A stretch of 64,000 nt of DNA from an uncultured SAR324 cluster bacterium (GTDB taxonomy: Bacteria; SAR324; NAC60-12), in the NCBI GenBank assembly GCA_905182865.1, contig CAJJCY010000002.1, positions 629,040 through 693,039 on the forward strand, read 5' to 3'. Each line of letters begins with the position of its first letter. Positions within the stretch are counted from its first letter, which is position 1. The notes under the pieces are model-generated. The model was given only the letters and a program-made list of their open reading frames with translations, was not told where the DNA came from and did no database searches. The translations under genes and the position numbers were made by a program. Below, piece after piece: positions 38,158 through 52,941 of this stretch.

Positions 38158-38376
38158 ATGAATATAAAAATATACTACTGTGTGGTTTGAAACTACAAGC
38201 CCAGTGCAGTCAGTTTGGCTGCAGAATTAAAAGCATCCTTTGGTGTGGATTCCGAACTTTTTTCGGGTGAGAAGGGTGACTTTGAAGTGGTTGTGGATGG
38301 TAAAACAGTTTTCTCCAAGAAAAAACTGTCAAGGTTCCCTGAGCCCGGAGAAGTAACAGAGACACTCAGGGAATAA
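38158..38376 (+). CDS. SelW-family selenoprotein (CVVU redox motif)
   Basis: 72 residues read from the ATG at 38158 through an in-frame TGA at 38188-38190 to TAA at 38374. The start MNIKIYYCVVU-NYKP is the Rdx/SelW pattern (strand, C-x-x-U/C, NYxP), with TGA at codon 11 where selenocysteine is expected. The rest fits too: SLAAELKASFGVDSELFSG, GDFEVVVDGKTVFSKK and RFPEPGEV match the family's body, and length is normal. A hairpin TGCAG/CTGCA with a nine-base GU-containing loop at 38205-38223 sits 14 bases after the TGA, where a bacterial SECIS belongs. The protein is a thioredoxin-like-fold redox protein of the SelT/SelW/SelH group; its partner is unknown. It requires SelB and tRNA-Sec, not in this window. 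Confidence 0.88.
38205..38223 (+). promoter_or_regulatory. Candidate bacterial SECIS hairpin (SelW gene)
   Basis: Perfect 5-base stem TGCAG/CTGCA with loop TCAGTTTGG, beginning 14 bases after the in-frame TGA; the loop's GU lies about 23 bases after the codon. This spacing and the G-U in the apical loop agree with bacterial SECIS elements recognised by SelB. Confidence 0.65.
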
Positions 38377-50716: not shown

Positions 50717-51358
50717 ATGAGGTTTTATAGTTTTTTATTAATGGCAATTATCTTTTTATTTGGAAGTCTGGTTAGCGAGTTCCACGAAGTCCGCGCGGAG
50801 GAAGGATTATTAAAAACAGAAAGTATCCGTCAGAAACTTTTTGGACGGATGGATGACAGGAAGAAGTCTAAGCCTCTACGTTCGGTCAGTGAAAACATCT
50901 TAATTGGAGTTTTCAGTAGAGTTACTGATTCTGAAAGCGTTTGGATCCGTATTGAAAGACGTTCAGAATATCGCAAATGGACATTCAAACTATCCAAAAA
51001 AAATCTGAATTTGCCGCGTCAGGAAGTACGTGTTTGGCTTAAATATGTTTCACCAAAACTTTCCATCAGTCACGGCAATGATTATAACGAGTGGTTCCGT
51101 GAAAAAGCTGCATTTGAGATGCAAAAGATTTTTTACAACAGGCAGGTAAGAATCAATTATGATTACTCAGACAAATTATTTCGGCTGGATGGAATGGTCT
51201 GGACTGGCGACACAAACATAAATATTTGGTTAATCCGGAATGGCTGGTCATTCTATCTGCTGGAAAATGAACCGCCTCTGGAGCATCAAGATTTACTTTC
51301 CGCAGAAAATGAAGCCAAACAACTTAAAGTCGGGCTTTGGAAAGCAGAGTTACAGTAG
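50717..51358 (+). CDS. Exported SNase-like (thermonuclease fold) protein
   Basis: 213 residues with a signal peptide (FYSFLLMAIIFLFGSLVS). Residues about 60-210 resemble a staphylococcal nuclease-like OB-fold: VRVWLKYVSPK, NEWFREKAAFEMQKIFYNRQ, then LDGMVWTGDTNINIWLIRNG and the C-terminal AENEAKQLKVGLWK, matching the family's usual A..A...GLW end. The catalytic Arg and acidic residues of active nucleases are not all evident, so it may bind rather than cut. Convergent with the selenoprotein gene. Confidence 0.72.
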   Translation: MRFYSFLLMAIIFLFGSLVSEFHEVRAEEGLLKTESIRQKLFGRMDDRKKSKPLRSVSENILIGVFSRVTDSESVWIRIERRSEYRKWTFKLSKKNLNLPRQEVRVWLKYVSPKLSISHGNDYNEWFREKAAFEMQKIFYNRQVRINYDYSDKLFRLDGMVWTGDTNINIWLIRNGWSFYLLENEPPLEHQDLLSAENEAKQLKVGLWKAELQ

Positions 51359-51374: not shown

Positions 51375-51408
51375 TTTAATTGGACTTTCAAAAGTCCAGT
51401 AATTTTAT
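51375..51408. terminator. Bidirectional terminator candidate
   Basis: TGGACTTTCAAAAGTCCA at 51381-51398 is a perfect palindrome (at least six base pairs with a TTCAAA loop), flanked by an A-rich run on one side and a T-rich run on the other. It lies between convergent genes, ending both the SNase-like gene and the selenoprotein gene. Confidence 0.6.
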
Positions 51409-52196
51409 TCAAACTGATGTCGCCTCCAGCGATAAGGGCTATCAATGATTATTCCCGGTTCGTTTGCAGTTTCCAGTATTTCCAAGCAATCCAGGAAAAT
51501 TTGCTTTTGTTGAGGCCGGTTAAATGATTCACCCATGGCATGACCGAATGGATATTTCAAATGGTATGTACGAGGCGGTTTAACCGACTCGGTAATCTTA
51601 CGGGCAAGCGAAATGCCTACGGTCGCAATTCCTTGTCTCTCGACTTCACGCTGAACCAAACCGACCGTCTGGTTGCAGATACCTCAGGCGGGCACCAACA
51701 AAGCTATATCAACTTTCTGCTGCTTGATTTCTTTTGCTGCATCAACAGCGCTTTTTTGGATTAAAATCGTCAAATGAGGTTCTTCTATGTGTCCCATGAA
51801 ACTGTAATGAAATTTGTTGGAGGGGCCTACTCTGCCTTCAGCTTGCAGTTCTAGTAAGACCTCAAAGGGTAGGATCAGATTTGGATCCAAATCGGCGTCA
51901 CGGTGATCATAATATTTGTGAGAAATGGTTAAATCTTCTTTGGTGACATTGTAAGGAATTCGGCGAAAAGAACTGTCTCCATGAGGATCAATCATATTAA
52001 AAGCTTTGTCGGATTTCAAATGAATACCACCTGTTGTAAATAAGGCAATTTTGCATTCTGGTAGTGGTTTGTTAAGCTTTGTCCATGGCACATGATTAAA
52101 GAATACAGATTCATAGCTGCGTGCCCAATAATTTTTCAGTACAGGAATACGAAAAAGCGCAACCAAAAGTTTGTCAATTAAAGATTCTTTTAACAT
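51405..52196 (-). CDS. GrdB/PrdB-family selenoprotein reductase (UGIC motif)
   Basis: 263 residues when the TGA at 51684-51686 (codon 171 from ATG 52196) is read as selenocysteine; both sides are in the same frame with no gap. The first part (LFTTGGIHLKSDKAFNM, GDSSFRRIP, SHKYYDHRDADLDPN) and the second (NQTVGLVQREVERQGIATVG, RKITESVKPPR) together match the glycine/sarcosine/betaine/D-proline reductase selenoprotein B family. Sec sits in LLVPA-U-GICNQT, at the place where homologues have Cys or Sec in a U/C-x-x-C motif. A weak hairpin follows the TGA. Divergent from the yggS-type gene with about 25 bases between starts. Likely a redox enzyme, not a true glycine reductase, as no GrdA/GrdC partners are nearby. 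Confidence 0.85.
51659..51674 (-). promoter_or_regulatory. Weak SECIS candidate (GrdB/PrdB-type gene)
   Basis: On the minus strand, AACC and GGTT enclose an eight-base loop AGACGGTC whose GGU lies about 18-20 bases after the in-frame TGA. The stem has only four base pairs, so the call rests more on position than on structure. Confidence 0.4.
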
Positions 52197-52221
52197 CAAT
52201 AATTATTAGAGAGCAAATGAA

Positions 52222-52941
52222 GTGTCAATCAAAGATAAAATAGCAATCGTTCAGCAACAATTAAAACAAGCGGCAATCCTGTCCGGACGTACACAGGAAG
52301 ACATCCGGCTGATTGCAGTTAGTAAAACCAAATCTACTGAAATGATACTGCAGGCCCTAGCGGCCGGGCAGAGCGCATTCGGTGAAAACCGGGTTCAGGA
52401 AGCACTTGGAAAAATTGAGGACCTGACCAAACTCCCCCTGGTAGAATGGCATTTGATTGGTCATTTGCAAAAAAACAAAGTAAAGTTCTGTCCCGGAAAT
52501 TTTCAGTGGATTCATACGCTTGATTCTACCGAATTAGCAGAAAAATTAGAAGCCCGTAGTGCTTTTGCACAAAAGAAAATCAATGTGCTGCTTCAAGTTA
52601 ATCTTTCCCGGGAAATTACCAAATCCGGACTACATGACTGGGAGGATATTTTGCAAGTATCAGAAACTATACTATCTGGTAAATGGCTTAAATTACGTGG
52701 ACTGATGACTATTCCTCCACCAAATATTGGTGAAACTCCAACTAGAAAAATATATGAAAAACTTCGCTTATGGCGTGATAAACTTAAGCAAGACCTTGAT
52801 TCTCCAGAAATCACGGAACTTTCAATGGGTATGACAGCTGATTTTCATTGGGCTATTCAGGAGGGGGCAACTATGATTCGAGTGGGAAGTGCAATTTTTG
52901 GGGAGAGGAATGAAGATATGGATTGTCCAACGAATATGTAA
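52222..52941 (+). CDS. YggS-family PLP-binding protein (PLP homeostasis)
   Basis: 239 residues. Start is GTG at 52222 (SIKDKIAIVQQQLKQAAILS). The PLP lysine is in IAVSKTKSTEMILQAL, then FGENRVQEALGKIEDL, WHLIGHLQKNKVKF and the end LSMGMTADFHWAIQEGATMI with RVGSAIFG, all typical of the YggS/PROSC family. It controls free PLP and amino-acid homeostasis. Divergent from the selenoprotein gene. Confidence 0.94.
   Translation: MSIKDKIAIVQQQLKQAAILSGRTQEDIRLIAVSKTKSTEMILQALAAGQSAFGENRVQEALGKIEDLTKLPLVEWHLIGHLQKNKVKFCPGNFQWIHTLDSTELAEKLEARSAFAQKKINVLLQVNLSREITKSGLHDWEDILQVSETILSGKWLKLRGLMTIPPPNIGETPTRKIYEKLRLWRDKLKQDLDSPEITELSMGMTADFHWAIQEGATMIRVGSAIFGERNEDMDCPTNM

Follow-up and report, generated by a model that had tools for sequence, protein, structure and literature searches.

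Main

PrdB-like proteins are among the commonest selenoprotein families of ocean metagenomes, and they are named after a two-subunit Clostridium enzyme. The Sargasso Sea survey of 2005 listed 42 selenocysteine (Sec) genes as 'proline reductase PrdB', with a UxxC motif (PMC1088965), the Global Ocean Sampling (GOS) survey of 2008 placed 235 genes with Sec and 110 with Cys under pfam07355 (PMC2398784), and a review from 2026 still gives the family as D-proline reductase (PMC13188914). Both surveys assign a proline reductase function, and we found no discussion of a missing partner or of a separate branch in their available text. In the open-access literature on 'PrdB-like', 'GrdB-like' and 'selenoprotein B family protein' (subscription journals lay outside this search), we found no stand-alone form.

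Here we describe a PrdB-like selenoprotein gene of a SAR324 bacterium. Similar to the genes of the Sargasso Sea and GOS sets, as the available survey text describes them, it has Sec in a UxxC motif, belongs to PF07355 and comes from marine bacteria. These sets very probably include the gene and its branch, a link made by description and not by sequence. The kind of selenoprotein is therefore already known from ocean surveys, and the stand-alone branch is a variant of it. As far as the open literature shows, what is new is the partner test, the failure to reach the PrdB cut-off, the separate branch and the branch-specific histidines. Our preferred reading, to which we give a probability of roughly 0.7, is that the gene alone encodes a genuine selenoprotein of a PrdB-like branch, a stand-alone Sec/thiol reductase of a small molecule that works without PrdA/GrdE or GrdA.

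The in-frame TGA is conserved as a coding codon

The window (the whole stretch of 64,000 nucleotides that was analysed) lies in contig 2 of a 3.2-Mb genome that is 86% complete. On its minus strand, two open frames lie in register with a single TGA, at 51684–51686, between them. Read through this codon, the gene (51405–52196) runs from an ATG at 52196 (or a TTG at 52199) to a TAA at 51405–51407 and encodes 263 residues, with 92 codons downstream of the TGA. Translated with TGA as Sec, the context of Sec171 is ...DIALLVPA-U-GICNQTVGLVQ..., in which U171-G-I-C174 forms the UxxC motif. The divergent neighbour (52222–52941, plus strand), which we take from a reading of its sequence to be YggS/PLPBP-like, and the convergent neighbour (50717–51358, plus strand), read in the same way as presumably a secreted nuclease-like protein, are kept beside the gene in SAR324 loci as neighbours and not as parts of the system.

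Among the matches listed from 58 SAR324 and related genomes, every one that reaches the codon has the in-frame TGA; the sole match without it (G014) stops at residue 143, the end of its contig. Across 28 aligned orthologues the TGA column does not vary, and in the SAR324 orthologues it is fixed as [LIFVH]xP[AS]-U-G[IL]C[NH]QTVGL. In a search with two patterns, one of them with Cys written at the TGA position, all 80 loci recovered from named genomes (SAR324, Thermodesulfobacteriota, Nitrospirota, Nitrospinota, Chloroflexota and further groups) had TGA there. The codon is likewise retained by each of the 89 distinct orthologues in the comparison, which span several phyla. The nearest named orthologues are 71–95% identical and come mostly from metagenome-assembled genomes (MAGs) and one single-cell genome (SAR324 cluster, Candidatus Lambdaproteobacteria and Deltaproteobacteria). 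In same-genus orthologues, dN was much smaller than dS on either side of the TGA, and smaller on the 3′ side than on the 5′ side; dS was saturated in more distant pairs. This comparison indicates that the codons 3′ of the TGA are under purifying selection.

Gene callers terminate the gene at the TGA, and the MAG shows apparent frame problems elsewhere (in selD), both of which would suit an assembly error, a pseudogene or a nonsense mutation that divides the frame into two genes. Against such an origin, the codon is always TGA and never TAA or TAG among the listed orthologues that reach the position, selection continues beyond it, a hairpin downstream covaries and the genome holds Sec machinery. 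The conservation of the TGA refutes such an origin, and we consider all three kinds extremely improbable.

The earlier note had joined the two frames into one reductase-family protein with Sec in a UxxC motif. The register of the frames, the single TGA and the selection on both sides of it bear out the joining, and the invariant TGA, the Cys homologues and the Sec machinery bear out the Sec assignment. In the alignment with Cys homologues that the note had proposed, Cys stands at the TGA column, within CxxC, in two alphaproteobacterial homologues from Roseomonas and Haematobacter (VPNCPVCHQT and VPNCPICHQT). The note had named a real C-terminus before this point, or a column that is neither Cys nor Sec, as evidence that would count against it; given the conservation of the TGA, the selection after it and the Cys homologues, the orthologue alignment has neither. 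We thus confirm that the finding is real and had been read correctly.

A covarying hairpin and Sec machinery accompany the gene

A fold of the window together with covariation placed a SECIS-like hairpin at 51651–51678 (minus strand), with an apical loop, GGUCG, at 51662–51666. Consistent with a bacterial SECIS element, it lies downstream of the TGA, its loop 17 nt 3′ of the codon, and has a G within the first two loop positions; the loop is GGUCG in SAR324 and of a CGUGG type elsewhere. In 27 diverse sequences, 83.2% of cells were paired, compared with 17–48% when the partner strand was slid, and four pairs showed changes on both sides, with 15–31, 18–28 and 19–27 the strongest. RNAalifold, unaided, recovered the same apical stem of seven pairs. 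The single-sequence energy was only weakly below that of shuffles (z −0.7 to −1.5). Covariation is the stronger argument for a SECIS element, as the region also encodes a conserved peptide and the stability of the single sequence is not remarkable. No Rfam family matched the hairpin in an Rfam search.

The same genome encodes SelA, SelB, a tRNA-Sec (54.3 bits; Rfam cut-off 47) and SelD, which is itself a Sec form with a CGU motif. The selD gene (L048 1361–2394; C1:69991–70782 of the same genome) has its Sec codon in KTCGUASK and extra in-frame stops further on; either the assembly is in error here, or the copy of this gene, which the Sec system requires, is damaged. The second selenoprotein that the note had seen in the window, SelW, is also real: a SelW-like protein (Rdx, PF10262) is encoded at 38161–38370 (plus strand) with one TGA, in a CxxU motif (YYCVVUNY), and is the sole PF10262 match in the genome.

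The gene belongs to a PrdB-like branch apart from true PrdB

Its PF07355 (GRDB) match (E 1e-9, 38.1 bits; gathering threshold 22) and its UxxC motif, which is CxxC in Cys homologues, place the protein in the GrdB/PrdB superfamily. The best NCBIfam match was PrdB, TIGR04483 (E 5e-42), compared with E 1e-15 for the GrdB model TIGR01917, so that it is nearer PrdB than GrdB. Its 143.9 bits fall below the TIGR04483 equivalog cut-off of 300, whereas true PrdBs score 400–425 bits; the range for orthologues (Pelovirga, Oscillochloris and a Desulfuromonadales MAG) is 155–185. The kinship that the earlier note expressed as 'GrdB/PrdB-like' therefore stands, on both PF07355 and TIGR04483, but its family label needed correction, as the protein is closer to PrdB, fails the PrdB cut-off and forms a branch of its own.

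The glycine, sarcosine and betaine reductase proteins GrdB, GrdF and GrdH (PF07355) share with the gene a homologous C-terminal half and UxxC. By contrast, the gene lacks about 200 N-terminal residues (the match begins at profile position ~206–209) and the second Cys of UxxCxxC, and it has no GrdA or GrdE. A full-length GrdB has about 430 residues; the protein here has 263, and its own genome has no PF04723 or PF09338. Of the 347 positions of the PF07355 profile, the match covers 210–345, with its end next to the Sec codon. The model itself stops there, probably as a result of database proteins cut at UGA. Annotation with this 347-position model misses the C-terminal third.

Compared with PrdB (TIGR04483), the gene is of the same length class, has the UxxC motif and shares His93, Asp104, Pro110, Met134-Gly135, Arg183, Glu186, Arg209, Gly218 and Gly222; identity to true PrdBs is 35–36%. 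PrdB differs in having Asn, an alignment gap and Ala where the gene has His98, His136 and His219. The homologues in the aerobic alphaproteobacteria Roseomonas and Haematobacter, annotated as 'glycine/sarcosine/betaine reductase selenoprotein B family protein', belong to the same superfamily, have Cys at the position of Sec171 and also stand alone within the regions shown. They differ in being Cys forms with CPVCHQT, at 29% identity, and in clustering with other SAR324 paralogues.

In a maximum-likelihood tree of 57 proteins, the true PrdBs were monophyletic (support 100/100) on a long stem, and 30 stand-alone orthologues lay apart from them, with moderate support for the joining fork (83/97). 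The paralogues with which the Cys homologues cluster in this tree usually carry UPVCHQ. SAR324 and related genomes have several more PrdB-like selenoprotein subfamilies (L135–L154), most with UP[VLMFN]C; one paralogue (L149) carries UPLD in place of UxxC, and two others (L145 and L146) sit within open frames longer than 600 residues and may be fusions. On profile scores and tree, the gene is assigned to a PrdB-like branch of the GrdB/PrdB superfamily that is separate from the D-proline reductase PrdB.

Partner subunits are missing from almost all genomes searched

In profile searches, PF09338 (PrdA/GrdE) was absent from the genome of the gene itself and, among 57 others, from 56; of 19 orthologue-bearing genomes of other phyla, 18 lacked it as well. 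As a control, the PF09338 search detected PrdA on three plasmids. PF04723 (GrdA) was likewise absent from its own genome and from 56 of the 57 others. The one genome of the SAR324 order that has PF09338 has a full GrdB adjoining it. A paralogue/partner pair in G040, considered as a PrdA partner of the branch, was rejected, as it consists of a true GrdB and a GrdE-type gene. The note had seen no GrdA/GrdC-type partners nearby; the absence of Grd and Prd partners holds and extends to the whole genome. As the genomes are incomplete (its own is 86% complete), this absence is statistical: MAG incompleteness cannot explain one so consistent, although it can explain single cases.

These searches bear on whether the gene is an ordinary D-proline reductase subunit PrdB, with a PrdA partner that the assembly happens to lack. 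PrdB is the nearest named family, the identity to true PrdBs is appreciable at the level given above, and the available text of the metagenome surveys names such genes PrdB (PMC1088965, PMC2398784). However, the score is less than half the cut-off, PF09338 is missing from nearly all the genomes searched, invariant residues differ, and prdA adjoins prdB on the Enterococcus, Terrisporobacter and Ligilactobacillus plasmids. We regard this explanation as largely refuted already and very unlikely. One prdB, on a Peptoclostridium acidaminophilum plasmid (L131 3986–4699), departs from the pattern of the other Firmicutes prd clusters in that no prdA lies within 4 kb of it.

Invariant histidines and a possible sulfur context

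All 89 distinct orthologues have His98, His136 and His219, and none of these residues occurs in the four PrdBs, two Cys homologues and GrdB with which we aligned them; some SAR324 paralogues also have His at position 98. An AlphaFold model (pLDDT 88, pTM 0.87) shows an alpha/beta protein in which Sec171 lies between a strand (164–168) and a helix (174–187), and His136 and His219 lie in loops after strands 129–134 and 209–212. Judging from strand order, a Rossmann-like sheet would place the histidines at one edge near Sec171. When solved structures were searched by fold, no match reached E <0.001 and nothing beyond common Rossmann-like arrangements (Z <8) appeared; PDB sequence searches, whether with the single protein or the family profile, yielded no relative.

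Within the SAR324 genus, the same neighbours are kept over several kb, none of them obviously connected to the gene; this synteny is limited to SAR324, and elsewhere the upstream gene varies. A rhodanese gene accompanies the orthologue in about ten loci, mostly of Desulfuromonadales: in about nine Desulfuromonadales loci (L083, L088, L100, L103, L105, L113, L114, L122 and L125) it is the immediately upstream gene and shares the strand, and in one Nitrospinota locus it lies downstream. In about five other loci, a gene for a geranylgeranyl-reductase-like FAD protein precedes the orthologue. In the Ligilactobacillus prd cluster, too, prdA is preceded by genes for rhodanese and TusA. The rhodanese context is a hint at sulfur chemistry and no more, and no conserved neighbour in the SAR324 loci or elsewhere names a substrate. 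In 20 loci, a cluster of antisense open reading frames over the gene appears to shadow the coding strand.

One possible alternative is that the protein is a Sec-dependent oxidoreductase of thiols/disulfides, peroxides or sulfur compounds, and not a C–N bond reductase, with (U/C)xxC used as in thioredoxin-like proteins. The retention of (U/C)xxC in Sec and Cys forms, the rhodanese (a sulfurtransferase) beside some orthologues and the lack of amino-acid-reductase partners are consistent with this alternative, but neither the secondary structure of the model nor the fold search, which gave no clear relative, indicates a thioredoxin fold, and the rhodanese link is nearly limited to one group. We hold it to be doubtful.

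Under the preferred reading of a stand-alone Sec/thiol reductase, the ribosome would read the in-frame UGA as Sec through SelB, tRNA-Sec and the downstream hairpin, giving an alpha/beta protein of Rossmann-like form in which Sec171 and Cys174 stand where a strand ends and a helix starts. A small-molecule substrate would most likely be reduced by the Sec/Cys redox pair, which cellular thiols or thioredoxin may then re-reduce. The enzyme would act without a pyruvoyl subunit (PrdA/GrdE) and without GrdA, and His98, His136 and His219 may serve as acid/base groups or metal ligands instead of partner subunits. The coding role of the TGA, its conservation, the covarying hairpin, the Sec machinery and the lack of detectable partner subunits are results of the analysis; the reductase activity, the electron donor and the role of the histidines are inferences.

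Discussion

Since the branch fails the PrdB cut-off and lacks the partner and the conserved residues of PrdB, inferring D-proline reduction from such genes in marine and subsurface metagenomes is unsafe. The gene instead defines an orphan enzyme, and cultivated bacteria (Pelovirga terrestris and Oscillochloris) carry orthologues of it. Tentatively, the branch may represent a widespread and so far exclusively Sec-using one-subunit class that carries out either amino-acid-reductase chemistry or a reduction of a new kind; Sec, Cys and the three invariant histidines would form its active site, which possibly binds metal. If so, this one-subunit class would have been hidden because gene callers and the Pfam model stop at UGA.
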